42,005 nucleotides of DNA, from the NCBI RefSeq assembly GCF_000382245.1, contig NZ_KB907891.1:1-42005 (forward strand), read 5' to 3'. Position 1 is the stretch's first letter. Each line of letters opens with the position of its first letter. This DNA is from Kushneria aurantia DSM 21353 (lineage in GTDB: Bacteria > Pseudomonadota > Gammaproteobacteria > Pseudomonadales > Halomonadaceae). The notes under the pieces are model-generated. The model saw only the letters and a list, made by a program, of their open reading frames with translations, did not search any database and was not told the origin of the DNA. The translations under genes were made by a program, and so were the position numbers. Of the stretch, positions 21,921 to 42,005 are shown piece after piece.

Positions 21921-21926
21921 CAAAGA

Positions 21927-22000: not shown

Positions 22001-22048
22001 CTTCTCTTACCCCCGATCTTCGGTCGTACTTATGGCCACCGCTCTCCT

Positions 22049-22139: not shown

Positions 22140-22176
22140 AATCAAGCACTTACCCTACCCTATTCTTTCGCAACGC

Positions 22177-27007: not shown

Positions 27008-27366
27008 CAGACGCCCCCCAGACTCAGGACGCGATCCTTCACCTGAAGGGTGAAGACGGCGAACTTCGCCATGATGATGGCCGAGACACAGGTGGAGAAG
27101 TTCTCGGGCAGAATGCGAGAGATGCCGTCGGAGAGCATGGGCGGCATGGAGACGACCAGTGTGCCGATGAGGGCGTCGATGGCGGTTGCCATGATGGTAA
27201 TGAAGGTGCCCAGCAGGCCGATCTTGACCAGCAGCCAGCCGAAACGTACAACCTGAAACCAGAGAAAGAAGCGAACGGCCAGCTGAGCGAAACTGAAAAA
27301 GGCGGCTTCCAGCAGAACGCCGAAGCGGGGGACAAGGCGCAGGATCAGACCGATAAACCCGATCAT
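27007..27366 (-). CDS. DUF2523 protein, pVI-like minor coat protein
   Basis: A 119-residue very hydrophobic protein with three probable spans (FIGLILRLVPRFGVLLEAAF, VRFGWLLVKIGLLGTFITIM and VSAIIMAKFAVFTLQ). DUF2523 proteins lie between the adsorption protein and Zot in inoviruses and are thought to correspond to minor coat protein VI. Four-base overlap with the upstream gene (27363-27366) and shared base with zot indicate translational coupling. Confidence 0.88.
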   Translation of the reverse strand: MIGFIGLILRLVPRFGVLLEAAFFSFAQLAVRFFLWFQVVRFGWLLVKIGLLGTFITIMATAIDALIGTLVVSMPPMLSDGISRILPENFSTCVSAIIMAKFAVFTLQVKDRVLSLGGV

Positions 27367-28892: not shown

Positions 28893-28990
28893 ATCACCAC
28901 CCCCGAAAAACAGCACTGGCGCAAAGGGTGTCGAAAATAAAAAAGGAGAAAGCCGGCTTTTCCATTTTCGTCATCCTCTGGCTGATAAGG

Positions 28991-29012
28991 AAAAGGGGCC
29001 GATCCCGACCCC
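28991..29012 (-). terminator. Terminator after the major coat protein gene
   Basis: GGGGTCG and CGGCCCC form a 7-bp stem with a GGAT loop, followed by TTTTCC on the minus strand. Filamentous phages typically terminate most transcription just after the major coat gene, and this site is 15 bp past its stop. Confidence 0.75.
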
Positions 29013-29026
29013 TTGCCTGATCCCGT

Positions 29027-29302
29027 TCAGGTCGATTTGTTGGCGAATTTCTTGAACAGACCGATTGCCAGCAGGGAGCCGACCACGCCGATGACGACGG
29101 GCCATGCCTGGCTGGCCATGTCGCCGGCCTGCGACTCCAGGGTTGAAAAGGCCTGCGAGTACGAGGCGGAAGCACCGCCGGAACCGCCGCCTTCAGCCGC
29201 CTGAGCGGCACCGATGCCGGCAAGGGTAAGCGCGCCGGCGGTTGAGAGTTGGGCTGCCTTTTTCTGGGACAGCGCACGGAGGTAGGCAAGTTTGTTTTTC
29301 AT
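29027..29302 (-). CDS. Major coat protein (pVIII-like)
   Basis: A 91-residue precursor. Residues about 1-37 form a long leader (AGALTLAGIGAAQA with cleavage before AEGGG); the mature chain of about 54 residues has an acidic/Gly-Ser start, one membrane helix (WPVVIGVVGSLLAIGLF) and a basic end (KKFANKST), exactly the profile of a filamentous capsid subunit. The ATG at 29302 overlaps the stop of the preceding small gene (ATGA). A terminator follows. Confidence 0.88.
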   Translation of the reverse strand: MKNKLAYLRALSQKKAAQLSTAGALTLAGIGAAQAAEGGGSGGASASYSQAFSTLESQAGDMASQAWPVVIGVVGSLLAIGLFKKFANKST

Positions 29303-29406
29303 GTCGAGATTTCCATAAAGCGCTTGAATGCAAGCATTGAGTATCCCCACGCCCAACCGAGGGCATAGGCACCGAGCAGGGAGCCGATGAGCTCTACAAC
29401 ACTCAT
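29299..29406 (-). CDS. Tiny membrane protein, pVII/pIX-like candidate
   Basis: A 35-residue frame beginning MSVVELIGSLLGAYALGW and ending FKRFMEIST, with one membrane helix and a basic end. It overlaps the preceding small gene and the coat gene by ATGA at both ends, a pattern hard to get by chance. Position just before the major coat gene and the size match the small tip proteins VII and IX of Ff phages; identity beyond that is inference. Confidence 0.65.
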   Translation of the reverse strand: MSVVELIGSLLGAYALGWAWGYSMLAFKRFMEIST

Positions 29407-29501
29407 CGCTGGCCCCCCTTTATCGCGCCGAGCCCGAATACCGCCACGAGCCCGATGCAATAAATCAAGAGCCACAGACTTTCGAACTGGTCGGGGTCCA
29501 T
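29403..29501 (-). CDS. Tiny membrane protein, second pVII/pIX-like candidate
   Basis: A 32-residue frame beginning MDPDQFESLWLLIYC and ending AIKGGQR, with one hydrophobic helix (LWLLIYCIGLVAVFGLG) and an acidic N-terminus. Its stop overlaps the next start as ATGA. It lies 13 bp after the ssDNA-binding-type gene. Probably a minor coat protein; no sequence family recognised. Confidence 0.65.
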   Translation of the reverse strand: MDPDQFESLWLLIYCIGLVAVFGLGAIKGGQR

Positions 29502-29513
29502 GGCATGTGTTCC

Positions 29514-29861
29514 TTATTTCTTGGCACTGGTGTCAGCGCCCTGTGCGGCGGCGCCCTGGGTGTTGGTGCCGGTACCGGCCTGGGAGCCTTTCGGGCGGCG
29601 CACGGCGGTCGCGAAGAAGGTCATCTTGCCGCCGGAGGGGCGCATCTCGGCGTCGATCTCCAGATTGCAGGGCATGTCGGGGGCGAACTGCCGCAGCTGT
29701 TCAAGCATGTCGTAGGGAGCGGCGATGGTCATGACCTGGTGGCCGATGGCGTTGTCGGCCTCGGGAGAGGCCGGGTTCATGGCGATGATCTTGGCGCCTT
29801 TGGTGCCCTCGACTTCATAGCGGCTGGCACCGATAACGCGGGCGGTGATGGTGTTGATCAT
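29514..29861 (-). CDS. Probable phage single-stranded DNA-binding protein (pV-like)
   Basis: A 115-residue protein starting MINTITARVIGASRYEVEGT, beta-rich and small, with a disordered Gln/Gly/Ala tail (residues about 95-115) as in single-stranded DNA-binding proteins. In Pf-like phages the helix-destabilising gene V protein occupies this position upstream of the small membrane protein and coat genes. No diagnostic residue was recognised, so assignment rests on size, composition and gene order. The ATG at 29861 follows GAGG. Confidence 0.65.
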   Translation of the reverse strand: MINTITARVIGASRYEVEGTKGAKIIAMNPASPEADNAIGHQVMTIAAPYDMLEQLRQFAPDMPCNLEIDAEMRPSGGKMTFFATAVRRPKGSQAGTGTNTQGAAAQGADTSAKK

Positions 29862-29862
29862 G

Positions 29863-30099
29863 TCAGTAGTCCTCGTTGGCGTGGGTGTGCGTGGCTTCAC
29901 GGTGTTGGCAGTAGTGAGCGAGCACGGCTAGCTCGGTGGATTGCGGGCATTCGCCCCGGGTGAGTTGCGTGTAGTATTCGGCCTGGCCATAGAGCAGCGC
30001 GGCATGGCCGTAGTCCCGTCCGTAGAGGCAGCGGGCGGCGCGCTCCCTCAAGACTCGGGGCTCCGGGCAGGTGTCTGCCTGCCCTGCCCGCCGGCCCAT
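29863..30099 (-). CDS. Small conserved-looking phage protein (start uncertain)
   Basis: The final part of a much longer open frame reads as a plausible separate protein: CLYGRDYGHAALLYGQAEYYTQLTRGECPQ is helical and ends with a Cys/His-containing tail. Its stop lies 1 bp before the ssDNA-binding gene start. No clear ribosome-binding site was found; the ATG at 30099 lies inside the arm of a long inverted repeat, so a later start such as the TTG near 30050 is possible. Function unknown. Confidence 0.4.
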   Translation of the reverse strand: MGRRAGQADTCPEPRVLRERAARCLYGRDYGHAALLYGQAEYYTQLTRGECPQSTELAVLAHYCQHREATHTHANEDY

Positions 30100-30798
30100 C
30101 GGTCGTGATGCACGGCAGTCGTCACCGCCGCCCCCGTCAACCCGTGCTGCGCAGGGTATGACGGGGGCGGCGTCGCCGACTCGGAAAGCCGTGCGACCGA
30201 TGGGCGACGGGTGACGGGCAGGCAGGAAAATCATGACTCGGAGGCAGATGCGGGAGCGCTGCCGGTATTCAGAGGCGGAACGTCGCCGCGCTCGAGACGG
30301 TCGAGGCCGTCCCTGATGATCGCTTCGCCCAGCATCGAGGGCGTGGTGTGATGGGTGCCGACCTGTATCAGCAGGCGGGAATGAACATCGGGCGTCACGA
30401 AGACGCGCACGGGAGTCTTGCGCTGGGTCATGGGAGGATTCCTCTCGGTGGTTGACGTCGAGCGGCTGAATGGCCGTTGGGGCCGGTATAAAAAGCACCT
30501 GTCCGCCGGGGTGCGGTGGGGTGAGCGGGCAGGTGAAGGCGGTATCAGGACGGGTATCGCCATAGAGGCGATAAAGAAAATCCTCGATATCTTCACGGCA
30601 TGCGAAACCGTAAACGGAAGCACCATCGCCATATTCATGGGGTTCTGCGACAACATCAGAAGGAAGGTCGCAGATGTCGAAAACAGCAAGCTGCCATGTG
30701 CCATACAGCAGCGACTGTCGAATCGAGCCCCTGACACGGCCACGGACAAGAAAGGAGAGAGCGTCGCTGGGAGCAGGCATGGGACGGAAGGTGATCAT
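29863..30798 (-). CDS. Phage gene with implausibly long frame; N-terminal 110-130 residues probably genuine
   Basis: The ATG at 30798 overlaps the stop of the excisionase-like gene as ATGA and has GAGGTG upstream, so translation starting here is credible. The first part (DALSFLVRGRVRGSIRQSLLYGTW, HEYGDGASVYGFACREDIEDFLYRLYGD) looks protein-like. After about residue 125 the frame continues to 29863 without a stop, but there it runs through the RHH gene in another frame and through the large hairpin, giving Arg/Pro/His-rich, unlikely sequence. Either a stop was lost or the frame stays open by chance in GC-rich DNA. Function unknown. Confidence 0.4.
   Translation of the reverse strand: MITFRPMPAPSDALSFLVRGRVRGSIRQSLLYGTWQLAVFDICDLPSDVVAEPHEYGDGASVYGFACREDIEDFLYRLYGDTRPDTAFTCPLTPPHPGGQVLFIPAPTAIQPLDVNHREESSHDPAQDSRARLRDARCSFPPADTGRHPSHHALDAGRSDHQGRPRPSRARRRSASEYRQRSRICLRVMIFLPARHPSPIGRTAFRVGDAAPVIPCAARVDGGGGDDCRASRPMGRRAGQADTCPEPRVLRERAARCLYGRDYGHAALLYGQAEYYTQLTRGECPQSTELAVLAHYCQHREATHTHANEDY
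30072..30226. other. Large nested inverted repeat, likely phage intergenic origin/packaging region
   Basis: A perfect 14-bp stem (CGCCGCCCCCGTCA at 30126-30139 and its complement at 30159-30172) has ACCC/GGGT pairing inside its loop. Around it, two arms of about 35-40 bp (30075-30116 and 30188-30226, sharing GCCCATCGGTCG and CTGCCTGCCC) pair with few mismatches, giving a structure over 150 bases. Filamentous phages carry such hairpins at the packaging signal and replication origins, and no well-supported gene needs this sequence. Confidence 0.6.
30231..30431 (-). CDS. Ribbon-helix-helix-type DNA-binding protein
   Basis: A 66-residue protein with a basic first strand (KTPVRVFVTPDVHSRLLIQV) and two helices (PSMLGEAIIRDGLDRLERGD), the arrangement of Arc/MetJ-type repressors, plus a flexible Ala/Ser tail. 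The ATG at 30431 is preceded by AGAGGA. It lies in a different frame inside the long open frame 29863-30798. It may regulate phage genes from the adjoining hairpin region; target unknown. Confidence 0.6.
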   Translation of the reverse strand: MTQRKTPVRVFVTPDVHSRLLIQVGTHHTTPSMLGEAIIRDGLDRLERGDVPPLNTGSAPASASES

Positions 30799-31004
30799 GG
30801 CAGCACCTCGTCGTCGTCGAGGCATTCCACCTGGAGCAGGGCGAGGTTGATCAGAAGGCGCTTGCCGATCTTTCGGGTCGGCAGATACCCACGACGGATA
30901 TGGCCCTCGACGGTGTCGACGGACAGGCCGGAGAGGTCAGCGAAGCGTTCCTTGGTCATCAGTGGCACCGGGGCCGGGACCTGTTGTGCTTTTGGCGTTT
31001 CCAT
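30795..31004 (-). CDS. Excisionase/AlpA-like helix-turn-helix protein
   Basis: A 69-residue protein with the pattern of MerR-like excisionase DNA-binding domains: MTKERFADLSGLSVDTVEGHIRRGYLPTRKIGKRLLIN, where a helix-turn-helix is followed by a wing with GKRLLIN. It is the first gene of the leftward phage operon and is divergent from the repressor gene, as the excision/activation protein is in Pf phages. It probably promotes excision and replication gene expression; inference from position. Confidence 0.75.
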   Translation of the reverse strand: METPKAQQVPAPVPLMTKERFADLSGLSVDTVEGHIRRGYLPTRKIGKRLLINLALLQVECLDDDEVLP

Positions 31005-31142
31005 TGTCGTAGGGCGCCTTTGGTTGTCTGTGGTAGGCTTTTCAGATGTTCCTATGTGTTTACATTAGGAGCCGGGGTGATACGACGAATGTGGGTACCA
31101 CAATCAGAGTATATACGATAACTATCGTATAGGTGATTGCGC
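31004..31142. promoter_or_regulatory. Divergent control region between repressor and excisionase-like genes
   Basis: AT-rich 138 bp containing the palindromic operator at 31112-31131 and a second short palindrome GTGGGTACCAC near 31091. Promoters for both directions must lie here. Confidence 0.6.
31112..31131. promoter_or_regulatory. Palindromic operator
   Basis: TATACGAT and ATCGTATA form a perfect inverted repeat with an AACT spacer. It ends just before the ribosome-binding site of the repressor gene and is a good candidate for autoregulation. Confidence 0.7.
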
Positions 31143-31445
31143 TTGTCAACGGAAAAAAGCTTCTCTGAAAAACTGCGTGCGATCAGGGATGCGCACGGGC
31201 TGGGAAGGAAGGCTCTCTCAGACGAGACAGGCATCCCGATCAGAACAATCGAAGGGATCGAGCAGCGAGGAACGATTCCTAGGACGGACATTGCGCAAAA
31301 AATCTGCAAGAGATGGCCGCAGTACTCTCTATGGCTGATGACTAATCAGGTGGACGAGGCTGCTGGACAGGTGAGCCCAGAGATAGAAGCAACAAAAGAT
31401 CGGCTTAAGCCGACCGGAACGGATACCGAATCGCAAGGCGAGTAG
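31143..31445 (+). CDS. Phage repressor, XRE-type HTH
   Basis: A 100-residue protein with an N-terminal helix-turn-helix of the Cro/CI kind (SEKLRAIRDAHGLGRKALSDETGIPIRTIEGIEQRG) and a short C-terminal region. It starts with a TTG at 31143 preceded by AGGTGA; a TTG two codons earlier would leave no spacing. Divergent transcription from the excisionase-like gene around a palindrome is a classical lysogeny switch. It likely represses the leftward operon and itself. Confidence 0.82.
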   Translation: MSTEKSFSEKLRAIRDAHGLGRKALSDETGIPIRTIEGIEQRGTIPRTDIAQKICKRWPQYSLWLMTNQVDEAAGQVSPEIEATKDRLKPTGTDTESQGE

Positions 31446-31505
31446 CCGAACGCTGGTACCGAGGTACAGGGAAATAAGTTATGGGTGGGGAAGGGAGGGG
31501 GGATA

Positions 31506-32399
31506 ATGGAAGCATGGGAAGGTGCTATAAATGGAATGATGATTGGTGGCATAGGCATAGTCATCGGCTCGTGGTTATCAATGTGGCTGGAGCCAAAGAA
31601 TAAAAAGCTTAACAAGATCAGGATATGGCTATGCGGTGCTGTAACCGTTTGCGCCATTATTTTCGTCATCAAAGCGAACGTTATTTTGCCATTGTTGATG
31701 ATAGGGCAATGGCCGTTGCTGGGCTTGGCAGTTTCTACACTGGTTACTTATTCAGCGATGGTTGTCGTTGTTGAGCCGGTGTTGTCAACATGGAGCTGGA
31801 AGTTCGGAGTCGGCGTAAAAGCGCTTCAGGATATAGCAGAGGAAGTGAGCAAAAAGAAAGAAGATGGAGAGGAAAAGGAGCCGACGATCAGTGACTTCAA
31901 AAACAATAAAAGCGATATCAAAGGCAATGAAGGCAAAAACCTGTCAGAAAGGCTAATGGACGAGGGTGAGGCATATCGCGTACGCACCTACATGATGTCG
32001 CCAACCGAAAGGCGAGTGTTCGAGGCACTGGAAAGAGACTATAGCCAATATTTCCATATCTTTTGTCAGGTTCGGGTTGTGGATATCGTACAGCCCAATA
32101 TGAAGAAGCATTATAGCTGGAGCAAAGAGTATAAAGCGCTTTTCCGTCAGCTATCGCAGTGGCACTTCGATTATGTCATCTGCACAAAAAAGGATTTCAG
32201 AATCAAATATGCGATAGAGCTGGACGATCCCAGCCATGAACGGGCAGATAGAATAAAGCGCGACCGCATTCTCAATCAGGCATGTGAAACGGCCGGCCTG
32301 AACCTGATTCGAGTCAGGCTGGACGATCAAAACCGACTGATACAGACATACCCGACAACGGAGGAAGGGGTTAATCCTCGCTCAGCTGCTCAAGGCTGA
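31506..32399 (+). CDS. Membrane-anchored DUF2726 protein (phage cargo)
   Basis: A 297-residue protein with two or three N-terminal membrane spans (GMMIGGIGIVIGSWLSMWL, IRIWLCGAVTVCAIIFVI and LPLLMIGQWPLLGLAVSTLV), a charged linker (about residues 110-150) and a C-terminal DUF2726 domain: RRVFEALERDYSQYFHIFCQ, then HFDYVICTKKDFRIKYAIEL and DDPSHERADRIKRD. The domain has a restriction-endonuclease-like look (Asp in FDYVI, Glu in AIEL). An excellent GGAGGGGGG ribosome-binding site precedes the ATG. Base composition is AT-richer than neighbours. It is not a known virion gene, so a cargo role such as superinfection exclusion or defence is possible but unproven. Confidence 0.8.
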   Translation: MEAWEGAINGMMIGGIGIVIGSWLSMWLEPKNKKLNKIRIWLCGAVTVCAIIFVIKANVILPLLMIGQWPLLGLAVSTLVTYSAMVVVVEPVLSTWSWKFGVGVKALQDIAEEVSKKKEDGEEKEPTISDFKNNKSDIKGNEGKNLSERLMDEGEAYRVRTYMMSPTERRVFEALERDYSQYFHIFCQVRVVDIVQPNMKKHYSWSKEYKALFRQLSQWHFDYVICTKKDFRIKYAIELDDPSHERADRIKRDRILNQACETAGLNLIRVRLDDQNRLIQTYPTTEEGVNPRSAAQG

Positions 32400-32703
32400 T
32401 GCCGAATGCAAGCGCAATCTTTTTGAGAGTGTCACGACGAGGCGCCTCCGACTTCTCCTGCTGGGCATAGGCAGACTGACTGATACCGATGCGCTCGGCC
32501 ACTTCTGCCTGGGTGAGCTTCAGGTATTTACGCCAGGCGGCCACCAGAGTAAGCCCATCGTTGACGATCATGCCCACGACTTCGTTGGGAATGAAACCGG
32601 ACTCCGGCTGACCGGCCATGTAATCGGCGTAGGGAATGACAACAAAAGCAGGCGCGCCGTCAGGACCGCTGATGATCTGAAGGTTTTCAGTAGGTACGTT
32701 CAT
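32371..32703 (-). CDS. HigA-type antitoxin / XRE-family regulator
   Basis: A 110-residue protein with an N-terminal part typical of antitoxins of RelE/HigB systems (IISGPDGAPAFVVIPYADYMAG) and a C-terminal HTH (LTQAEVAERIGISQSAYAQQEKSEAPRRDTLKKIALAFGIS). It follows the toxin remnant with a 17-bp overlap, and its 3' end overlaps the DUF2726 gene on the other strand by 29 bp. The antitoxin is intact and its partner is not. Confidence 0.88.
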   Translation of the reverse strand: MNVPTENLQIISGPDGAPAFVVIPYADYMAGQPESGFIPNEVVGMIVNDGLTLVAAWRKYLKLTQAEVAERIGISQSAYAQQEKSEAPRRDTLKKIALAFGISLEQLSED

Positions 32704-32875
32704 CGCGCTTTCTCACTTCCTGAATCTGAATAATCTGGATGCTGCCATGCCAATCAAACAGCACTCGGTAGCTGCCGGCCCGCAGCCTATAGCCGTAACG
32801 GTGGCGCTTAAGCGACTTGACGTTGTGGACATCCGGCATGTCAGCCAGTTGCTGGACAATTGAAAATGCGTCGTA
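32687..32875 (-). pseudogene. 5'-truncated RelE-family toxin
   Basis: The open frame reads FSIVQQLADMPDVHNVKSLK and then RHRYGYRLRAGSYRVLFDWH with the ending IIQIQEVRKRDERTY, the conserved C-terminal two thirds of RelE-type mRNA interferases paired with this antitoxin family. Upstream there is an in-frame TGA (32876-32878) and no start codon, so about 25 residues forming the first strand and helix are missing. Likely inactive. Confidence 0.75.
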
Positions 32876-33003
32876 TCAAAATGAAAAATGTCGACCAAGC
32901 GTCAACGCCAACAGCAGGCAAAGGCGAGCATTGACTGCATAGCATCGTGGCAACTATATGATATGGCAGAAAAAGAAATTCAAAGACATTCTTCCGTATC
33001 GGG

Positions 33004-33062
33004 CTTAAAATCTCTCGACCGTATGGTCGTGCCGGTTCGATTCCGGCTCCGGGCACCAGTTT
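33004..33062 (+). repeat. attR, 59-bp copy of the tRNA-Leu 3' end
   Basis: Identical to 22081-22139. It carries anticodon-loop to CCA of tRNA-Leu but no 5' half, so it is not a tRNA gene. Confidence 0.93.
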
Positions 33063-33230
33063 GAAGTTGACCCTGTCCACTACTGGTGGATGGGTTCTGC
33101 CTCATTAGCACGACCACTTTTGAGTATTCAGTCCCGGACTGTGATGGTAGCTTGTCGCGCCAATAAAGGATGCGCTATGGGATAGCATCCCTCAGTTGGT
33201 GCGCTTGAGTTTGCATCGACTCTACCAGCG

Positions 33231-33403
33231 TCACGGCATTTCCAGGCTTCCGGACATGAAAACCGAGGCCGCGCCGAAGAAGGCGCTCAAGAGCTAACTC
33301 CTCGATTCTGCCGTAACGCCCCGCCGGTATGGTCGATACTCTGACCCAGCGCCCGCGATGCGCCGAGTACCAGTGCGGTATTGCCGTGCAATCCGAAATC
33401 CAT
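33231..33403 (-). pseudogene. Short-chain dehydrogenase/reductase remnant
   Basis: The first 22 codons from an ATG at 33403 with a good ribosome-binding site encode MDFGLHGNTALVLGASRALG, the Rossmann start of an SDR enzyme with T-G-x3-G-x-G-like signature (here GASRALG). In a second frame follows IPAGRYGRIEEL and in a third SAFFGAASVFMSGSLEMP, both typical of SDR C-termini. A deletion of about 170-190 codons and two frame changes leave no functional protein. Confidence 0.78.
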
Positions 33404-33489
33404 CTTGCGTCCTCTTTGTCTGTGATCTCCGCGCCAGCGTATGCAAGACGTGAGCGCGAAGATTGGGCCAATGTGGCCATGAGGGCGTC

Positions 33490-34383
33490 TCAGCCGGTGA
33501 GATGCGTCGAGGCGTGACGTGCATGATCGAGATGGTGGGCGAGATAGCGTGAGGCCAGCCTGCGATCTCCCTCGCGCAATGCCTCGATCACCGAGAGATG
33601 TTCCTGGCACCAATCGGTAACGCGGCGGCGGTTGGTATAACCGAGATACTCGAGCATCCGGCGCTGCTGATTCTGACTCTGGATCGCCTGCAGGAAGAGC
33701 GCGTTGCCGCTGGCGCGCACCAGTGTCTCGTGGAAGTTGGCGTCGATGCGAAAGAGCATCGGTCCGGGCAGGCTGGTGGTATTGGCAGGCTGTAACAGCT
33801 GCTCATGCTGAGTCTGGAGCGCATCGAGAGTCGCCATGTCGATGACGAAGCCCGGTAGCAGCAATGCCTGTGGTTCCAGTGCACTGCGGTACTCGTAGCT
33901 TGCGATACGTGCTTCTTCGGTATCGAGTCCGGTACGGAACGTCCAGCCTTGGCCAGGGTTGCGTTCGACCAGTCCTTCATTGGCCATGCGCGTCAACACC
34001 CTTCGCATTGCCGGCGCATTCGCACTGTAGCGGCGTAAAAGATCGACCTGGTTGACCGTCTTCGCGAGCCGGCCGCTGACATGATCCTCCACGATGGCCA
34101 GATAGAGCGCCTCGTCGGGAGAGGGAGGCAGCGCCAACGTCAACGAGTGAACTTCACCGCGGGCGCGCTCGAGCACGTAGCCCTGATGGGGTACGGAGCG
34201 AACGACACCATGTGCCTCGAGCAGGCGCAGCGCTGCGCGTACCGGGGTGCGTGAAACGCCAAGATATTCGGCCAGGCGCTGTTCGCGCAGCGGGTCACCC
34301 GGATCGAGCAGATGCTCGTCCATGTAGCCCAGCACACGCTGAGCCAGCTCGGCCTGTCGTCTGGAGCCGTAGTTGCCTGTCAT
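33490..34383 (-). CDS. GntR-family regulator, FadR/FCD subfamily
   Basis: A 297-residue regulator with an N-terminal winged helix (LREQRLAEYLGVSRTPVRAALRLLEAHGVV, wing VPHQGYVLERA) and a C-terminal FCD ligand domain with metal-site histidines (RIDANFHETLVRASGN, ASRYLAHHLDHARHA). I take ATG 34383 (MTGNYGSRR) with AAGG upstream; ATG 34428 is also possible. It is divergent from the transporter operon and most probably controls it in response to a transported compound or metabolite. Confidence 0.9.
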   Translation of the reverse strand: MTGNYGSRRQAELAQRVLGYMDEHLLDPGDPLREQRLAEYLGVSRTPVRAALRLLEAHGVVRSVPHQGYVLERARGEVHSLTLALPPSPDEALYLAIVEDHVSGRLAKTVNQVDLLRRYSANAPAMRRVLTRMANEGLVERNPGQGWTFRTGLDTEEARIASYEYRSALEPQALLLPGFVIDMATLDALQTQHEQLLQPANTTSLPGPMLFRIDANFHETLVRASGNALFLQAIQSQNQQRRMLEYLGYTNRRRVTDWCQEHLSVIEALREGDRRLASRYLAHHLDHARHASTHLTG

Positions 34384-34460
34384 GGCATCGATTCGCCTTG
34401 CACGGGAATGAGAAAGGATTTTTGACATAGACCTTGGTTGTAGTTTTTTGCGGCAGTCAG

Positions 34461-34490
34461 TTGACATCACCATTGTACAAAAAGTATCGT
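34461..34490 (+). promoter_or_regulatory. Promoter of the transporter operon with an embedded GntR-type site
   Basis: A perfect -35 TTGACA (34461-34466) is followed 18 bp later by TATCGT. Between them lies the palindrome TTGTACAA (34473-34480), of the kind bound by FCD-type GntR regulators, so the regulator would block the promoter. Confidence 0.55.
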
Positions 34491-34565
34491 CAAAAACAAT
34501 CGAGGTCTGCACAGACGGATCACGATCCGGATAACTTCAATAACAAGCCAACGGAATTCATTGCC

Positions 34566-35402
34566 ATGACACCAAGCATCCTCCGCACTCTAGCGCTGGC
34601 GGCTGCGCTGCCGCTCTCAGCCGGTTTCGCAGCTGCTGCCTGCGCCGCCGATGTGACCCCACCCGACTCCTTGGTCAACGACGGCCAGTTGACCTACGGC
34701 GTCGCCGCGACCTTCGCACCGTTCGAATATCAGCAAGACGGTAAGCTCGTCGGCTTCGATATCGAGCTGGGCCAACTAATTGCCGATCGCATGGGTCTGG
34801 AGGTCAATCCGTTCAACGTCGATTTCAAAGGGTTGATCCCGGCCCTTCAGGGTAAACGTATCGATATCATCAATTCGGCGATGTACATCAATGACGAACG
34901 CGCCGAGCGCGTCGATTTCGTGCCCTATCTGTGGGTCGGCAACGAAGTGATCGTGCGCAAGGGCAACCCGGCCGATGTTGCCGGGCGTGGAGAGATCTGC
35001 GATCACACCGTCGCGGTGACGCTTGGTGGTATCTCGGAGACCCAGGCGCGTGGCGATGCCGAGCGCTGTGAGTCAAGTGGTGAGGGAGAGGTCAACGTGA
35101 TGACATTTCCGTCGGCCCAGGTCGCCGCGATGGCGGTACGCCGCGGCCGCGCCGACGCTTTCTACGATTCCACGCCGGGTGCCGCTCACCTTCTGAAGAC
35201 CCTCCCGAACGTCTACGAGATCGTCGGCGATACCTTCGAAGCCAATACCCAGCTCGGCATTGCCGTGCGCAAGGGCGACGACGCGATGAAGACTGCGATT
35301 CAAGAGGCGCTCGTGCAGATCGCCGCTTCCGGCGACTACGAAGCCTTGCTCGAGAAGTACAAGCTTCCGCATAGCGCGGCACTGCTCCTCAAAGACGACT
35401 GA
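34566..35402 (+). CDS. Periplasmic amino-acid-type binding protein (family 3)
   Basis: A 278-residue solute-binding protein with an export signal (LRTLALAAALPLSAGFAAAA, with AAAC as a weak lipobox candidate), then the family 3 signature GQLTYGVAATFAPFEYQQDG KLVGFDIELGQLIADRMG. The Arg/Asp ligands of the amino-acid family appear as FKGLIPALQGKRIDIINSAM with later RRGRADAFYDS. It feeds the permease and ATPase encoded next. The ligand is probably a zwitterionic amino-acid-like molecule. Confidence 0.92.
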   Translation: MTPSILRTLALAAALPLSAGFAAAACAADVTPPDSLVNDGQLTYGVAATFAPFEYQQDGKLVGFDIELGQLIADRMGLEVNPFNVDFKGLIPALQGKRIDIINSAMYINDERAERVDFVPYLWVGNEVIVRKGNPADVAGRGEICDHTVAVTLGGISETQARGDAERCESSGEGEVNVMTFPSAQVAAMAVRRGRADAFYDSTPGAAHLLKTLPNVYEIVGDTFEANTQLGIAVRKGDDAMKTAIQEALVQIAASGDYEALLEKYKLPHSAALLLKDD

Positions 35403-35414
35403 CCGGAACTCTTC

Positions 35415-36143
35415 ATGTCCGATGCGCTCTCCATAATCGCCGGTTATCTGGTCTCGTGGACCTTCTTCGAGGCCGCGTTGATGACGCTGGCGCTGACCTT
35501 GCTGGCGATGTTGTTTGGCATGCTGCTGGGGATCATATTTGCGCTGATCCAGGAAAGCCGAATCAAGACGCTGCGCGGTGTAGTCTTGATCTACTTGTGG
35601 TTGTTTCGCGGTACACCGGTACTTCTGCAGATCATCTTCGTGTTCAACGTGCTCCCGGTGTTTGGCATCGTCCTGTCTGGCTTCGTCAGTGGCGTCATCG
35701 CGCTGTCGCTCAACCAGGGGGCCTACATGACCGAAATTTTCCGATCTGGGCTTCAGGCCGTTGGCAAGCAGCAGCGAATCGCCGGTAGCGCGCTGGGTAT
35801 GAAGCAGTCCCAGGTCATGCGCTTCGTGGTGTTGCCGCAGGCGTTGCGCATCGTCGTGCCACCGACCGGCAATCAGTTCATGGGCATGCTCAAGGAGAGT
35901 GCCCTGGTGTCAGTGATCGCTGTGCAGGAACTGCTGTTGGTCGCCGATCAGACCGCCAGCGCCAATTTTCGCTATCTCGAAGCGTTATCGACGGCCGCCA
36001 TCTATTACCTGGCGCTGACCACCATCTTCATGGTGATTCAAACCTACATCGAGCGCTGGCTGGCACCGCGCAAGCACGGTGCCAAGGTGAGCTGGACCCA
36101 GCGTCTGCTTCGAATGACCGCCCAGCCCCGGAGCTCCCAGTGA
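35415..36143 (+). CDS. Amino-acid-type ABC transporter permease
   Basis: A 242-residue inner membrane protein with five to six spans. The HisM/GlnP-type EAA loop is present (GSALGMKQSQVMRFVVLPQALRIVVPP) along with YLWLFRGTPVLLQ. It begins 13 bp after the binding protein and ends overlapping the ATPase start. As the only permease in the operon, it probably acts as a homodimer. Confidence 0.93.
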   Translation: MSDALSIIAGYLVSWTFFEAALMTLALTLLAMLFGMLLGIIFALIQESRIKTLRGVVLIYLWLFRGTPVLLQIIFVFNVLPVFGIVLSGFVSGVIALSLNQGAYMTEIFRSGLQAVGKQQRIAGSALGMKQSQVMRFVVLPQALRIVVPPTGNQFMGMLKESALVSVIAVQELLLVADQTASANFRYLEALSTAAIYYLALTTIFMVIQTYIERWLAPRKHGAKVSWTQRLLRMTAQPRSSQ

Positions 36144-36937
36144 AGGACGAAATCAATAGTGCGCTCTCGTTTCGCGAGGAAGCCTCGACGATAGACGTCG
36201 TGCCGGGGAAATCTCTGTTGAGTGTCAAGCACGTGAGCAAGGCGTTCGATGACCAGTGGGTGCTCGACAACGTCAGTCTCGATGTCGAAGTCGGCAAGAC
36301 TCAGGTCATTCTCGGGCCCTCCGGTTCCGGCAAATCCACACTGCTGCGCTGCATGAATCTGCTCGAGCCGATTGACGCCGGTGCCATCTGGTTCAGCGGC
36401 CAGGAAATCTCGGCCCAGCTCGACCGCGCACATCTCGTTCGGCGAGAACTGTCGATGGTGTTCCAGCATTTCGAGCTGTTTCCACATCTCAATGCGCTCG
36501 AAAACATCATGCTGGCGCCGACACGGATCAAAGGCATGAGCCGGGTCGAAGCGCGCGAAAAGGCGATGGTGCTCCTCGAGAAGGTGCGCATCGCCGACAA
36601 GGCCAGCCTCTATCCGGATCAGCTTTCCGGAGGACAGCAGCAGCGTGTGGCGATCGCCCGGGCGCTAGCGATGGAGCCCAAGGTGATGCTCTTCGATGAA
36701 CCGACTTCCGCGCTTGATCCGGAGATGGTCAAAGAGGTGCTCGATGTCATGACTTCGCTGAGCGAAGCCGGAATGACCAGTGTCGTGGTGACACACGAGA
36801 TGGCGTTCGCTCGCGAAGCCGCCCAGCGGGTAGTGTTCATGGAGCAGGGGAGAATCGTCGAGGACGTCGACAAGGACGCCTTTTTCTCGGGCAACGTCGG
36901 CGAACGTGCCCAGCTATTCATGAGCAATATGCTGTAG
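36140..36937 (+). CDS. Amino-acid-type ABC transporter ATPase
   Basis: A 265-residue GlnQ/HisP-type ATPase with Walker A GPSGSGKST, Q-loop in SMVFQHFELFPHLNALENI, signature LSGGQQQRVAIARALAMEP, Walker B VMLFDEPTSALDPEM and the switch His in VVVTHEM. The GTG start overlaps the permease stop by 4 bp (GTGA). An unusual 27-residue extension precedes the first strand (LLSVKHVSKAF). It energises uptake by the adjacent permease. Confidence 0.94.
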   Translation: MKDEINSALSFREEASTIDVVPGKSLLSVKHVSKAFDDQWVLDNVSLDVEVGKTQVILGPSGSGKSTLLRCMNLLEPIDAGAIWFSGQEISAQLDRAHLVRRELSMVFQHFELFPHLNALENIMLAPTRIKGMSRVEAREKAMVLLEKVRIADKASLYPDQLSGGQQQRVAIARALAMEPKVMLFDEPTSALDPEMVKEVLDVMTSLSEAGMTSVVVTHEMAFAREAAQRVVFMEQGRIVEDVDKDAFFSGNVGERAQLFMSNML

Positions 36938-37029
36938 CCAAGATCCCATCTCGTGCCTCATCACGCCAGAAATCATGCTGGTGTCGCCCTGCGATGCCCT
37001 CCGCCCCCTTTTCGATCCGGAATCACGCT

Positions 37030-38214
37030 ATGTCCTCCCGTACCGAACTGCCTGTCGTCTCCGATCTTAACGTCGTCTCGCTGCTCGAAACGCTGGTATC
37101 GCTCAATACCGAAAATCCGCCGGGACGTGAGCTCGAGGCGGCCAGGTTTCTCGCTGGCGTGCTCGAAAGTCTCGGCTGTGAAGTGACACTCGACGAATTC
37201 GAGCCGGGGCGGGCCAATGTAATCGCGACCTACGTCAACGGTCCCGGGCCGACCTTCGCGTTCAACACGCATATCGACGTGGTACCGGCCGGCGCGGATT
37301 GGGAGTACGACCCGTTCGTCGCTCGCATCGCCGACGACAGGCTCTATGCGCGGGGCGCCTGCGATGCCAAGGGCCCGCTTGCCGCCATGGTGATGGCGGT
37401 CGCGGATCTGATCGCGAGTCGCGATCGGTGGTCCGGTACGCTGATGGCAATCTTCGTCGCCGACGAGGAGGTCGGCAGCGCGGGCGCCAAGCATTTCGCC
37501 GCGATCACCGAGCAGGCGATCGACTACGTCGTTGTCGGTGAGCCGACCTCCAATCAGCCGGTAATCGCACACAAAGGCAGTCTGCGCCCGATCGTTCGTA
37601 TTCACGGCAAGAGTGCTCACTCCGGCACCCCGGATCTCGGCATCAATGCGCTTTACGAGGCCGCGAAGCTGGTTGGCTTAGTGGAACGGACCCATCGGCA
37701 AGTGAAGTGCCACCACCATCACCTGGTCGGCAACGCCAGTCTGACCATCACCCGACTCAACGGTGGGCATGCCGACAACGTGGTGCCGGATCGTTGCGAC
37801 CTGATGCTGGACCGGCGCATGGTCCCGGGGGAGTCGGAGGCGCAGGTGCGTTCCGACATCCAGGCGATGCTCGATCTCGCCGCCAACGAGTTCGGGCTGC
37901 ACACCGAGATCGTCGAATGGAAAGCGACCACCGGTGGTGCCAGCGAGACCGAACAGAGCCATCCGGTCGTCGCCGCCACCGTCGAGGCCGCGCGCCGCGT
38001 AGCCGCGAACGGAGAGGTGAATATCGGTGGCTTCCAGGGTGGTTGCGATCTGGTCCACTTCCGCAAGCTCGGTGCCAATGGCGTGGTTATCGGCCCAGGC
38101 TCGCTGGCTGTCGCGCATCAGCCGGAGGAATTCGTGCCGTTGGCCGAACTTGAGTCGGCAGTCGGTCTCTACCGCGATATCGTGCTGGGACTGCTGAAGA
38201 GAGCAGCGGTGTGA
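37030..38214 (+). CDS. M20-family zinc amidohydrolase (ArgE/DapE/acylase type)
   Basis: A 394-residue M20 enzyme with all metal and catalytic residues: His in FNTHIDVVPAG, bridging Asp in GACDAKGPLAAM, the catalytic Glu pair in FVADEEVGSAG, Asp/Glu in VVGEPTSN, and the last His in SLAVAHQPEEF. The dimerisation lid has KSAHSGTPDLGIN. Such enzymes remove acyl groups from N-acyl amino acids or cleave dipeptides. ATG 37030 is preceded by GGAA; the frame extends 12 codons further. Its stop overlaps the next start, so the downstream enzyme is coupled to it. Confidence 0.9.
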   Translation: MSSRTELPVVSDLNVVSLLETLVSLNTENPPGRELEAARFLAGVLESLGCEVTLDEFEPGRANVIATYVNGPGPTFAFNTHIDVVPAGADWEYDPFVARIADDRLYARGACDAKGPLAAMVMAVADLIASRDRWSGTLMAIFVADEEVGSAGAKHFAAITEQAIDYVVVGEPTSNQPVIAHKGSLRPIVRIHGKSAHSGTPDLGINALYEAAKLVGLVERTHRQVKCHHHHLVGNASLTITRLNGGHADNVVPDRCDLMLDRRMVPGESEAQVRSDIQAMLDLAANEFGLHTEIVEWKATTGGASETEQSHPVVAATVEAARRVAANGEVNIGGFQGGCDLVHFRKLGANGVVIGPGSLAVAHQPEEFVPLAELESAVGLYRDIVLGLLKRAAV

Positions 38215-39347
38215 TCGATGCCCGCTACTATCGTGCCATGCTCGTCTACGGCAATGGTGTAAAGCTGCATACCGCCGTCTCGGGCGCGATCGATGGACTC
38301 TCCGAACGCTATCTGCGTATTCAGTGCGGCTCAAGCGTCGGTATTGGCGCCATTCGCGCCAATATCGCTTATCTGAGCGGCGTGTCTGAGGCTGAGCTCG
38401 ACGCGCAGATCGTCTCCGCCTGTCGCTGGCTGGGTTCGTTCGATGCCAGCGAGCCGGCGCGTCGCGCGCTCGATATCGACTTCCCGTTCAGCAATCCGGT
38501 CAAGGCGCTTGTCGAGCTGGCGCTGCTTGATCTCGAAGCCCGCCGCGCCGGGCTCTCATTGGGACGCTATCTGCGTCAGAGCCACGTGCTGGATTCGCTC
38601 CTGCCGATGGCCGAGGCGCCGATCCTCGCCAGCAATCAGACGCTTTTTCACGGTATGCCTGACGCAGTCGTCGCCCAGGCCCGAGGCTACGCCGAGCGAG
38701 GCTTCGGCGAGCTCAAGCTGCGGGTGGGCTTTGGCGACATCGACAGTGATCTTGCGCTGCTGGCACGAGTGCGTGAGGCAGTCGGTGCAGATATCGATCT
38801 GGCGATTGACGTCAACGGCCGCTGGTCGCTCGAGCAGACCTTGTCGGCATTGCCGCGCCTTCACGAGGTCGATTTAGCCTATCTCGAACAGCCGTTGACA
38901 AAAGGCGAGTGGACGAGATTGGCGCGGCTCTGTGAGCACACAGAACTACCGATCCTGCTCGACGAAGGGCTGTCGTCAGACGATGACATGCAGCGTCTGA
39001 GCCAATTACCGCGTCAGGTCGGCGCGCATCTCAAATTGGTGAAGGTGGGCGGCTTTGGCGCGCTCTCCGAACTCTACTCTCAGCTCCATTTCGAGAATCG
39101 CCCGCGCATGATCGGACAGATGAATGAGGGCGGGTTGGCCACGTCCTTCACCGTCCATGCCGCCTGGGCGCTGGGAGAAACCCGCGGCGAGCTCTACGGC
39201 GCCGATGGCATCGCAGATGACCCCTTTCCGCTGGTCGATTACGCCAACGGTTTCGCCAGCGTGGAAGACAGATCGACCGACACCGTCTTCCGTCGTCTCG
39301 ACGCGCTGGCCATCGACTCATCCATTCTCAACGAGGTATCCCAATGA
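38211..39347 (+). CDS. Enolase-superfamily enzyme (muconate-lactonising/racemase-like)
   Basis: A 378-residue protein with an enolase N-terminal capping domain and a barrel. Catalytic features are K-x-R in FGELKLRVG (family usually K-x-K), metal ligands Asp in AIDVNGRW, Glu in YLEQPL and Asp in LLDEGLS, and the opposite lysine in HLKLVKVGG. The D-E-D ligand set points to the MLE subgroup, which includes dipeptide epimerases and N-acyl amino acid racemases. The GTG start overlaps the M20 stop. Together with the M20 enzyme, racemisation followed by deacylation is a reasonable idea. Confidence 0.88.
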   Translation: MIDARYYRAMLVYGNGVKLHTAVSGAIDGLSERYLRIQCGSSVGIGAIRANIAYLSGVSEAELDAQIVSACRWLGSFDASEPARRALDIDFPFSNPVKALVELALLDLEARRAGLSLGRYLRQSHVLDSLLPMAEAPILASNQTLFHGMPDAVVAQARGYAERGFGELKLRVGFGDIDSDLALLARVREAVGADIDLAIDVNGRWSLEQTLSALPRLHEVDLAYLEQPLTKGEWTRLARLCEHTELPILLDEGLSSDDDMQRLSQLPRQVGAHLKLVKVGGFGALSELYSQLHFENRPRMIGQMNEGGLATSFTVHAAWALGETRGELYGADGIADDPFPLVDYANGFASVEDRSTDTVFRRLDALAIDSSILNEVSQ

Positions 39348-40501
39348 CATCGGCTTTATTGCAGGGACGCGAATCCGCCTTCCCGCGTGACGAATATCTC
39401 TCACGTCAGCAGCGCCTGAGTGCGTTGATGGGGGAGAAAAAAATCGACTTGATGGTGATTACCGGGCCCGAAAATATCTTCTATCTTACCGGGCAGCAGA
39501 CGCCAGGCTACTACACCTTCCAAGCGCTGCTGATGCCTCAGAATGGCACGCCGAAATTCATCATTCGTGAGCTCGAGTCGCTCAACTGCCGTGCCAACAG
39601 CTTCGTCGAGGAGATTCTGCCCTACGGTGACGGCGTCGATCCGCTAGCACTGCTTGCCGACCAAATCCGTGGTTTCGGCGCCGAGCGCGTGGCGATCGAC
39701 AAGCGCGGCTGGTTCCTGCCGATCTCCACTTTCGAGACGCTCGTCGGCCAGTGTGGCGAGATGCTCGACTGTGCCGGAATTGTGGAGTCTCTGCGTGCGG
39801 TCAAGAGCGAAGCCGAAGTACGCTGCATCGAACAGGCTGCCGGTTATGTCGATGCCGGCATGCGCGCCGGTATGGAGGCGGTGCGCCAAGGCGCCAGCGA
39901 GAACGACGTGGTCGCGGCAATGATGTGCGAAGCGATTCGCGCTGGCTCCGAGTACATGGGAATGGAGCCGCTGATGTCGAGTGGTGAGCGAAGCGGTGTG
40001 CCTCACGGCACCTGGCGGCGCCGCCAATTTCAGTCTGGCGATCCGGTATTTCTCGAAATGGCCGCCTGCCACAACCGCTATCACGCGGTACTGATGCGGT
40101 CTGCCTGGCTGGGGGAGCCGCCAGAGCAGGCCAAGCGCATGATGGATACCTGCCAGCGGGCTCTCGCCGCTGCGCTCGATGTCTTCAAGCCGGGCAATAC
40201 CTGCGCCCAGGTGCATGAAGCCGCTCAGGCGGTGATCGACCACGCCGGCTATACCGACTGCTATCGCAAACGTACCGGCTATAGCGTGGGAATCTCGTTC
40301 GCGCCCGACTGGGGTGAGTGGCAGGTGGCGAGCCTGTTTAGCGGCATCGACCGAGTACTCGAGCCGGGCATGGTGTTCCACATCCCGCCGGCGCTGCGCG
40401 ACTACGGCAATTTTACCGTCGGTGTCAGCGAGACCGCGGTCGTCACGTCGGACGGGCATCGCGTGCTCGGCAGCGTCGATCGCGATCTGCTCATCGTATG
40501 A
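39344..40501 (+). CDS. M24-fold hydrolase resembling ectoine hydrolase DoeA/EutD
   Basis: A 385-residue creatinase/aminopeptidase P-fold protein: N-terminal domain (KKIDLMVITGPENIFYLTGQ) and pita-bread domain from about residue 160. The segments LEMAACHNRYHAVLMRSAWLG, TGYSVGISFAPDWGEW and LEPGMVFHIPPAL align by eye with halomonad DoeA. The five metal ligands of true M24 peptidases (D, D, H, E, E) are not all present: the first Asp pair is replaced, as in DoeA and creatinase, so it is likely a metal-free ring-opening or amide hydrolase. Its start overlaps the enolase stop (ATGA). Confidence 0.85.
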   Translation: MTSALLQGRESAFPRDEYLSRQQRLSALMGEKKIDLMVITGPENIFYLTGQQTPGYYTFQALLMPQNGTPKFIIRELESLNCRANSFVEEILPYGDGVDPLALLADQIRGFGAERVAIDKRGWFLPISTFETLVGQCGEMLDCAGIVESLRAVKSEAEVRCIEQAAGYVDAGMRAGMEAVRQGASENDVVAAMMCEAIRAGSEYMGMEPLMSSGERSGVPHGTWRRRQFQSGDPVFLEMAACHNRYHAVLMRSAWLGEPPEQAKRMMDTCQRALAAALDVFKPGNTCAQVHEAAQAVIDHAGYTDCYRKRTGYSVGISFAPDWGEWQVASLFSGIDRVLEPGMVFHIPPALRDYGNFTVGVSETAVVTSDGHRVLGSVDRDLLIV

Positions 40502-41754
40502 GCGCCGGACCGCGCTGGTTGGTGCACGAGCCACAGGAGTTCGACGCGGCACTGGCGCTGGCGACACTGTGGCTTAGCGCAGAAGGCTCGGTGACGTCCG
40601 GATCGATCCATTGTCTCGACGAGCCTGGCGAATCGCCGACCGCCAGGGACCCGGCGCTTCACCAGTTCGTGACTCGTGGCGGACGGCTCGAACATAACGC
40701 CTGGCTCTGGCTCGAGCGCGCTGGGGGGACTATCGCCGATCAGACGTGCCTGATGGCGCCTGCCGACATTGATGATCTACCAGCGAACGCCGTCGTGCTG
40801 GTGGCGACGAGTGTCGAAGCAAAGGCGCCACCGCGACAAGGTATCGACGTCATCGATCTCGTCGGTGACGGTGACGGTGACGGTGACGGTGACGACCAAT
40901 GGTTTCTGGTCCAGCGCTCGAGCGGAGATGTGTTGCTACGTGCATGTCGTGACGTCTTCGGCAGGATCGTTGCCCGTCCATGGGCAGCGATGGTGAGAAC
41001 ATCAGAAGACGGCGCATCGGGGCTTCGCGTGGCCATCGCCGGAGAGTCCGAGCATCTGCGTCAACGCTATCCCGGCGTACTGGCAGCGCTTGGCGACGCG
41101 GTCGATGCGCTAGGTATCGCCGTCGAGGTCGACATCCGCTCTCCGCGGGCACTGTCGGCCGCCGACGCAGCGACGCTGGTCGGTGATGTCGACGCGCTGA
41201 TTTTGCCGGGTGGGTGCGACAATAGTCAGGTGGCGGGCATGATCGCTCTGGCCGGTGCGGCGCTCGATGCCAACCTGCCGACGCTCGGACTCTGCTTTGG
41301 CATGCAGGCGATGGCGACGGCAGCCATTCGCACCCGCCTTGGGATGATGGATGTCGCGCTAGAGGAGGTAGATCCCGAAGCCTCCGAATTCGCCGTCGTC
41401 GGCATGCCGGGGGAGAGCGGCGGCCTCCGACATCGGCTTGGCGAGCATCGGAGCCGAATCATCACCGGATCGCGTCTCGCCGCGATTCACGCGACGCCGA
41501 CGCTCGACGAGCGCATGAATCATCGCTATCGACTCGCCGATTGTTGGGAAGCGCCATTGGCGGATGTCGGGATCATAGTGTCGGCACGTTCTACCGACGC
41601 TCGCGAGATCGCCGATGTCATCGAGGCGACGGATCGGCGTTTTTACCTCGGTTACCAGGGCCACCCCGAATTGCTCAGCGCGCCGGAGCGCCCCCATCCC
41701 GCTTTTACCGCGCTATTGAGCGAGGCGCTAGATGGTGTCGTCACGAAATTCTAA
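40498..41754 (+). CDS. CTP-synthase-like class I glutamine amidotransferase domain protein
   Basis: A 418-residue protein. The N-terminal 170 residues are not recognised and end in an Asp-Gly repeat (DGDGDGDGDD). Residues about 180-410 form a class I glutamine amidotransferase domain: oxyanion strand ALILPGGCDNS, nucleophile elbow TLGLCFGMQAMA, and the His-Glu pair in GYQGHPELLSAPERPHP, resembling the glutaminase half of CTP synthase without its ligase half. It either supplies ammonia to an unknown ligase or hydrolyses a gamma-glutamyl or related amide in this pathway. It overlaps the M24 gene by 4 bp. The last few codons overlap an IS element end, so the C-terminus may be altered. Confidence 0.8.
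   Translation: MSAGPRWLVHEPQEFDAALALATLWLSAEGSVTSGSIHCLDEPGESPTARDPALHQFVTRGGRLEHNAWLWLERAGGTIADQTCLMAPADIDDLPANAVVLVATSVEAKAPPRQGIDVIDLVGDGDGDGDGDDQWFLVQRSSGDVLLRACRDVFGRIVARPWAAMVRTSEDGASGLRVAIAGESEHLRQRYPGVLAALGDAVDALGIAVEVDIRSPRALSAADAATLVGDVDALILPGGCDNSQVAGMIALAGAALDANLPTLGLCFGMQAMATAAIRTRLGMMDVALEEVDPEASEFAVVGMPGESGGLRHRLGEHRSRIITGSRLAAIHATPTLDERMNHRYRLADCWEAPLADVGIIVSARSTDAREIADVIEATDRRFYLGYQGHPELLSAPERPHPAFTALLSEALDGVVTKF
40864..40893 (+). repeat. Five tandem copies of GGTGAC
   Basis: A hexanucleotide repeat inside the amidotransferase gene encoding alternating Gly and Asp. Copy-number change would lengthen or shorten the linker without frameshift. Confidence 0.9.
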
Positions 41755-42005
41755 GCCACAAAACAAGGAAACGAATCTGGGCGGCGGCGAGAAATGACAC
41801 CAGATTTTTCGCATAGCGTGTCGCAATGCCCCGCCACTGTTTGATGTGCAAGAACGCATTTTCGACAAGGTGGCGCTGACGATAAAGGTGTTTGTCATAC
41901 GCGCGCTGAGCCTTACGATTCTTGCGTGGCGGTATTTGCGGCTGCATGCCTTGCTGCTGAGCCTGCTCGACGATGGCGTCACTGTCGTAGCCCTTGTCGG
42001 CTAAC
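41741..42005 (-). mobile_element. IS5-type transposase gene, 3' end (cut by right edge)
   Basis: The frame enters from the right edge with LADKGYDSDAIVEQAQQQGM (DKGYDS carries the second Asp region of the DDE triad) and continues with PPRKNRKAQRAYDKHLYRQR, then HLVENAFLHIKQWRGIATRY with the catalytic Glu, ending FLVLWLRIS. This is the C-terminal third of an IS5-family transposase. The stop at 41741-41743 lies inside the last codons of the amidotransferase gene on the other strand. Terminal inverted repeats could not be delimited from one end. Confidence 0.88.

Follow-up and report, generated by a model that had tools for sequence, protein, structure and literature searches.

The window analysed here, a 42,005-nucleotide stretch of Kushneria aurantia DSM 21353 (NZ_KB907891.1), is one whole contig (C30) of the 61 into which this 3.75-Mb genome is assembled. 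Near its right-hand end, a minus-strand gene for a GntR regulator with an FCD domain is divergent from seven plus-strand genes, encoding the substrate-binding protein, permease and ATPase of an ABC transporter, an M20 deacylase, an enolase-superfamily enzyme, an M24 protein and a CTP-synthase-like glutaminase. The open reading frames and families that a sequence-only reading had assigned to this region were all recovered at the same positions, as GntR/FCD, SBP_bac_3, BPD_transp_1, ABC_tran, Peptidase_M20, MR_MLE_C, Peptidase_M24 and GATase. Together they probably form a catabolic operon, with what seems to be a new set of enzymes. The features of the locus are as follows.

33292..33403, minus strand: remnant of an SDR gene, whose beginning and a piece of whose C-terminus lie in separate frames, with about 195 residues between them missing
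33490..34383, minus strand: GntR-family regulator with an FCD domain (GntR 63.7 bits, FCD 76.2 bits)
34461..34490, plus strand: sigma-70-like promoter (TTGACA-18-TATCGT), overlapping the putative operator
34472..34500, no strand: putative operator, a 29-bp inverted repeat that in the window has one mismatch to WTTGTAY-N15-RTACAAW
34566..35402, plus strand: periplasmic substrate-binding protein (SBP) of family 3, SBP_bac_3 (domain match and residues)
35415..36143, plus strand: polar-amino-acid-type ABC permease, BPD_transp_1 (TIGR01726, 95.5 bits, cut-off 42.2)
36140..36937, plus strand: ABC transporter ATPase, ABC_tran (domain match)
37030..38214, plus strand: M20 ArgE/DapE-type deacylase, Peptidase_M20 (TIGR01910, 248.5 bits, cut-off 217.6)
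38211..39347, plus strand: enolase-superfamily (MLE-like) enzyme, MR_MLE_C, with K-x-R replacing K-x-K (domain match and alignment)
39344..40501, plus strand: DoeA-like M24 protein, Peptidase_M24, with most metal-ligand positions altered (domain match and alignment)
40498..41754, plus strand: CTP-synthase-like glutaminase (GATase) without a synthetase domain (Pfam GATase; N-terminal part of about 160 residues without a family match)

The start of the GntR gene at 34383 is presumed, the longest open reading frame extending to 34512. Four joints between the plus-strand genes (permease–ATPase, M20–enolase, enolase–M24 and M24–GATase) are 4-bp overlaps, as the sequence-only reading had described, but the coupling does not extend to every joint: gaps of 12 bp and 92 bp separate SBP from permease and ATPase from M20, respectively. 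Promoter-like matches number 2 in the region against 2.3 expected, which makes the promoter call weak taken alone. An SBP_bac_3 protein with a HEQRo-type permease marks the transporter as one of the polar-amino-acid type, consistent with the earlier proposal of one catabolic operon served by amino-acid-type ABC uptake.

We compared 11 loci (that of the window, three in genomes of its family and seven on Agrobacterium, Pantoea, Shinella and Rhizobium plasmids) and found the eight genes together at all of them; the gene neighbourhood that the sequence-only reading had proposed to look for is thus a recurrent one. The plasmid carriers of this eight-gene core are pAt of A. fabrum C58 and plasmids of Pantoea, Shinella and Rhizobium lusitanum, all of them large plasmids whose hosts are associated with plants or soil. 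Two loci (L031 and L032) are without annotation, and their core genes were located by BLAST. At nine loci, identity to the window is 60–71% for M24, 53–59% for M20, 51–70% for SBP, 41–58% for GntR, 38–50% for the enolase and, over the matched part, 31–54% for GATase; at the tenth other locus (L050) the GntR orthologue was recognised by annotation. Searches of the window's family gave a GATase match at E ≤ 1e-30 in 4 of 275 genomes, all four of which carry the whole core. In plasmid searches, the 30 enolase records with at least 80% query cover (from 264), the top 30 among 50 M24 records and the top 30 among 83 GATase records have identical accessions, as judged by eye from the three lists. These 30 plasmids, far from independent of one another, belong to Agrobacterium (19), Pantoea (8), Shinella (2) and Rhizobium (1), and the co-occurrence of the three genes on them exceeds chance. 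Outside the compared carriers the module is rare. M24 at E ≤ 1e-90 was found in 1 of 390 genomes of the order, the window's own; at E ≤ 1e-60 it was found in 8 of 398 genomes of the phylum, the seven others being only 36–38% identical; and the N-terminal 168 residues of GATase, searched for in 369 genomes of the class, matched a single one, again the window's own. A contig scan gave seven further loci, each matching only the CTP-synthase-like half (in frames of 540–597 codons), with none of ten other query genes at E ≤ 1e-5.

All 11 loci also share the inverted repeat. It was first seen upstream of the SBP gene as ATTGTAY-N18-CAAT, which occurs once in the window and gave no match in 100 shuffles; because these loci themselves supplied the pattern, its presence at 11 of 11 is partly by construction. 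Not built into the pattern is a second placement: with at most one mismatch, the repeat lies upstream of a class-I aminotransferase gene at all eight loci that have that gene nearby, and at both Shinella loci it is exact and stands between the aminotransferase and GATase genes. The aminotransferase gene of the window genome, on contig C15, is likewise preceded by the repeat, with two mismatches to the original pattern. When the pattern was made symmetric after the aminotransferase sites (WTTGTAY-N15-RTACAAW), it matched with at most one mismatch at two places each in genomes G024, G516 and G563, one ahead of SBP and the other ahead of the aminotransferase; the window genome has three such places. 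The sole perfect match in each of the four family genomes is the site before the aminotransferase. With up to two mismatches, the repeat is found neither in six stretches of five records carrying the sister clusters described below nor in two stretches (L047 and L049) of a group with M24 of 36–37% identity. The third site in the window genome (C11:11085–11113, or L070 1501–1529; one mismatch) lies beside frames that we take to be LexA- and NagZ-like, and was set aside as a regulon member because it is probably a chance match.

This conserved placement makes the repeat the likely operator of the GntR protein. Because the repeat precedes both SBP and the aminotransferase, the operon appears to belong to a larger regulon, in which core and aminotransferase share the repeat and of which the window holds only part. 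The single GntR regulator of the sequence-only reading therefore stands as the likely control, with the shared inverted repeat in its favour, but its regulon would be wider than was then thought and would include the aminotransferase gene missed on the other contig.

Other partner genes vary with the carrier. The class-I aminotransferase gene adjoins the core at 8 of 11 loci, and genes for a DHDPS-family lyase and an SDR accompany the core at seven; in Shinella the SDR is itself accompanied by a FAH protein. In their place, A. fabrum C58 and R. lusitanum (2 of 11) encode a D-amino-acid transaminase (DAAT; 380.9 over a subfamily cut-off of 320), a GhrA-like reductase and a VOC protein. The window genome's own aminotransferase, at the end of contig C15, is 63% identical to that of L023. 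An intact SDR gene adjoins the GntR gene in L023, L026 and Pantoea, and tblastn with the L023 protein matched the window with residues 1–23 at 33403–33335 (65%, E 7e-4) and 219–232 at 33333–33292 (71%, E 0.016), each match weak singly but the two collinear. G563 lacks both SDR and DHDPS and keeps the other genes. Eda, also named 4-hydroxy-2-oxoglutarate aldolase (PMC9424857), is over its cut-off in all four family genomes with the core and could make a DHDPS gene dispensable there.

Conserved residues of the core proteins bear on what is imported and how it is broken down. Relative to GlnH of Escherichia coli, SBP at all 11 loci keeps Arg75 and has alanine for Asp10 and serine for Asp157, positions that we take to contact the ligand, Asp157 presumably through its ammonium group. 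In the same alignment Asp157 is present in GlnH, HisJ, ArgT and a Rhizobium jaguaris protein annotated as the ectoine-binding EhuB. The pattern suggests a ligand with a carboxylate and without a free alpha-ammonium group. The M20 protein passes the ArgE/DapE deacylase cut-off (TIGR01910), and what we take to be its metal-site motifs are conserved at 11 of 11 loci. In the M24 protein, Glu238, aligned with residue 255 of the DoeA chain, is kept throughout, and GY, as in DoeA, replaces the metal-binding GH motif at every locus; four of the five usual metal-ligand positions differ from those of an aligned aminopeptidase, the last glutamate being kept. The enolase-family enzyme has K-x-R at 11 of 11 loci against K-x-K in all five solved relatives compared, and retains the second lysine and the acidic metal ligands at every locus. 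It also lies under all racemase and epimerase cut-offs tested. The missing lysine makes a two-base racemase doubtful, and with it the label 'racemase-like' given in the sequence-only reading. Enolase-superfamily and M20 genes adjoin here as they do in N-succinylamino acid racemase or dipeptide epimerase systems, in which the racemase works with an M20 deacylase; the operon differs in its K-x-R and in having no acyltransferase.

The final gene product was earlier called a CTP-synthase-like glutaminase, and this description is borne out: it matches the glutaminase half of CTP synthase (Pfam GATase, 66.0 bits over 22.8), with a Cys-His-Glu triad at 11 of 11 loci. Peptidase_C26 is its second Pfam match (25.8 bits, cut-off 20.5). 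Against the full CTP synthase profile it scores 132.4 bits (cut-off 308) over residues 160–411 only, and against PRK06186 57.8 bits (cut-off 260). Equivalents of E. coli PyrG Gly351, Gly352, Gly360, Cys379, Gln383, Glu403, Arg440, Arg470, His515 and Glu517 are kept at all loci, among them Gln383, Glu403 and Arg470, which we assume to line the glutamine pocket. At none of the 11 loci is there an Arg429, and at all of them Asn stands in for Arg468; Arg356 is kept at only two. The residues of GTP activation given in PMC9138612 include Arg356, Gly360, Arg429, Arg440, Arg468 and Arg470, so the GTP site looks partly lost. The triad and the residues of the pocket, shared with PyrG and PRK06186, suggest a glutaminase freed from its synthetase, unlike those proteins in lacking the synthetase domain and in carrying an extra N-terminal part. 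An AlphaFold2 model made without an alignment (mean pLDDT 34.1) gave no usable fold for this N-terminal part. The window copy has in it a GDGDGDGDD run (40870–40896) that is absent from the ten other aligned copies.

From these features we tentatively propose, as a possibility that falls somewhat short of probable, that the operon supplies the upstream steps of a catabolic regulon, controlled by the GntR protein, for an N-blocked amino acid with a side-chain carboxamide, most likely of glutamine type. An N-acylated or ring-closed carboxylate would be imported by the ABC transporter, the DoeA-like M24 protein may open the blocked group, and the M20 enzyme would remove the N-acyl group. The glutamine-like amino acid so released would then pass to the CTP-synthase-like glutaminase, which would hydrolyse its amide to leave a glutamate-type product that the class-I aminotransferase, encoded elsewhere in the window genome behind the same repeat, could transaminate; the resulting 2-oxo acid might be cleaved by the DHDPS-family lyase or perhaps, where that is missing, by Eda. 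The weakest step is that of the enolase-family enzyme, which may catalyse a one-base proton transfer or an elimination at the alpha carbon and to which we give no place in the order. The DHDPS-family lyase, the SDR with FAH in Shinella and the GhrA-like reductase of A. fabrum and R. lusitanum lead us to favour a 4-hydroxyglutamine derivative, which would end as pyruvate and glyoxylate. That an N-blocked 4-hydroxyglutamine is the substrate is our boldest guess, loosely held and on balance unlikely. N-acetylglutaminylglutamine amide was also considered and set aside, since it has no free carboxylate and SBP keeps Arg75; no degradation pathway for it is named in the literature searched.

A second type of cluster may illuminate the lower part of the pathway. 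Sixteen plasmid records carry an M24 protein of 49–52% identity, and clusters of this type occur on Rhizobium, Agrobacterium, Shinella, Salipiger, Methylobacterium and Paracoccus plasmids. All five annotated examples that we examined (L043, L044, L045, L046 and L048) encode PxpA, PxpB and PxpC-like proteins and a VOC protein, with M20D and DAAT in four of five each, and the unannotated L060 has PxpABC, M20D and DAAT matches and no VOC. These sister clusters, in which 5-oxoprolinase subunits and M20D replace the enolase, M20 and glutaminase of the operon, have in common with it an M24 protein about 50% identical and, with the C58 operon, VOC and DAAT: the C58 VOC (137 residues, L029 8176–8589) is 81–92% identical to the five sister-cluster VOCs, compared with only 52–54% for M24, and its DAAT is 59–62% identical to theirs. 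In R. lusitanum (NZ_CP050307.1, 1612000–1640000; L073) the operon and a PxpABC/M20D/M24 cluster stand side by side, and this 28-kb stretch has two hydroxyacid dehydrogenases and a single VOC and a single DAAT match, both in the tail of the operon. The Salipiger cluster also carries aminotransferase, DHDPS-family and SDR genes, the aminotransferase 55–65% and the SDR 45–50% identical to the operon partners. Operon and sister cluster may thus converge on one lower pathway, entered from a lactam on one side and from an amide on the other. A fuller version of our proposal, which we also think unlikely, is that of an undescribed, horizontally moving, PxpABC-paired regulon for an unrecognised natural N-blocked 4-hydroxyglutamine-type compound, possibly a cyclic amidine, with a free-standing catabolic amidase made from the glutaminase domain of CTP synthase and a K-x-R enolase of a new reaction type.

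Several observations weigh against these proposals. The 11 loci are not independent, four of them have no DHDPS gene, and the best DHDPS match in the window genome is only 25% identical. None of the DHDPS, SDR, aminotransferase and GhrA-like partners reaches its NCBIfam equivalog cut-off, so that no such partner comes with an assigned substrate; the GhrA-like proteins of C58 and of the sister clusters are only about 30% alike, and the Salipiger DHDPS is only 23–30% like the others. Eda is also over its cut-off in 6 of 14 control genomes, and its presence says little. A reversed control pattern had no match in three genomes but two in G563, and 2.14 Mb of Markov-control sequence based on four loci contained 3 matches with one mismatch and 11 with two; at the 1.4 matches per Mb expected with one mismatch, two or three repeats per genome are no excess, and the case for the operator rests on placement and conservation. 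The ammonium-binding role of Asp157 is our assumption, and the protein annotated as EhuB keeps this residue, so an N-blocked ligand does not clearly follow from its loss in SBP. The glutamine-pocket roles of Gln383, Glu403 and Arg470 are likewise assumed. PMC9138612 puts Arg468 and Arg470 at the GTP site; Arg470 and Arg440, which it also lists, are both kept at 11 of 11 loci. The 4-hydroxyl group of the favoured substrate is deduced from the partner genes.

The sequence-only reading had thought of an N-acylated or cyclic, possibly ectoine-related, amino acid derivative; an N-blocked amino acid fits the SBP residues, subject to the point about EhuB, and the link to ectoine fails. In favour of an operon for ectoine or hydroxyectoine degradation, with M24 as the ectoine hydrolase and M20 as the deacetylase, DoeA is the best-scoring solved relative of M24, including the glutamate at residue 255, and a hydrolase, a deacylase and amino-acid-type ABC uptake are grouped as in ectoine clusters (DoeA/EutD, DoeB/EutE and EnuR). 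Yet M24 scores 283.7 against a DoeA cut-off of 575 (NF038259) and 184.0 bits against 613 (TIGR02993), and the genome has a genuine DoeA on contig C27 (648.1 bits; that search gave the window M24 183.7). In a tree of 32 M24 proteins the 11 operon copies form one clade (97/97); seven sister-cluster rows (100/99) adjoin it, the two together at 89/88, which is not strong, nine rows of 36–37% identity are separate, and the genome's own DoeA and another of its M24 proteins are long branches of unsure place. SBP is far under the EhuB cut-off (88.9 against 190.9), and among the family matches of the eight operon proteins there is no DoeB/EutE and no MocR-type EnuR; the regulator has an FCD domain and is not of the MocR/GabR type, and the M20 enzyme is not EutE. 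The operon adds an enolase, a glutaminase, an aminotransferase and often DHDPS to what ectoine clusters contain, and ectoine degradation gives the enolase and the glutaminase no role. We reject this explanation as very improbable.

Less strained, although still improbable, is the recovery of peptides or cell-wall material, with the enolase as a dipeptide epimerase, M20 and M24 as dipeptidases, GATase as a gamma-glutamyl hydrolase and DAAT acting on D-glutamate: the best-scoring solved relatives of the enolase include dipeptide epimerases, Peptidase_C26 is the second Pfam match of GATase and DAAT at 2 of 11 loci is over its subfamily cut-off. Here the K-x-R motif at every locus, the changes at four of the five presumed M24 metal-ligand positions and the closeness of GATase to CTP synthase speak to the contrary, and DHDPS and SDR would have no role. 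We give more room, while still doubting it, to N-acylated glutamine conjugates without a 4-hydroxyl group (fatty acyl, auxin or opine-type conjugates made by plants), whose acyl part the lyase and reductases would handle. Such conjugates fit the glutaminase and the SBP residues, and several of the plasmids belong to hosts from plants, nodules or galls; but no acyl-activating gene was seen among the annotated neighbours, M24 and the enolase would be superfluous, and free glutamate should, we infer, need no co-regulated aminotransferase of its own. The window copy might, finally, be a decaying, non-functional acquisition, given the SDR remnant, a transposase-like fragment at 41741–42004, the want of a close DHDPS and the location of the aminotransferase gene on another contig. 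All eight reading frames are open, however, the conserved residues and the repeat are present, and G563, likewise without SDR and DHDPS, keeps the rest; decay strikes us as improbable.

The surroundings of the window copy are its own. The transposase-like fragment, recognised by eye, lies on the minus strand at the contig end and overlaps the final part of the GATase gene. A transposase-like end, again recognised by eye, also opens contig C15. To the left, window 21758–27007 holds tRNA genes for Gly, Cys and Leu followed by an integrase, an unassigned 432-residue frame, a secretin and a Zot-domain protein of the inovirus morphogenesis type; the region has the look of a filamentous prophage that sits at a tRNA gene. 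A DUF2726 protein (31485–32399) lies between this region and the operon. Window 22000–33500 has no frame matching L023, L026 or L027, so the left neighbours differ.

The sequence-only reading knew of no described pathway with this combination of enzymes, and we found none in the literature searched, which left out most subscription papers; the operon may be described elsewhere. The PxpABC sister clusters are not named in the same literature. The conserved set on pAt of A. fabrum C58, to which no substrate was assigned in what we searched, points to an unrecognised compound that is used by several unrelated bacteria. The operon also extends two protein families, one by a glutaminase domain that appears to stand free of its synthetase, the other by an enolase-family enzyme minus one catalytic lysine.

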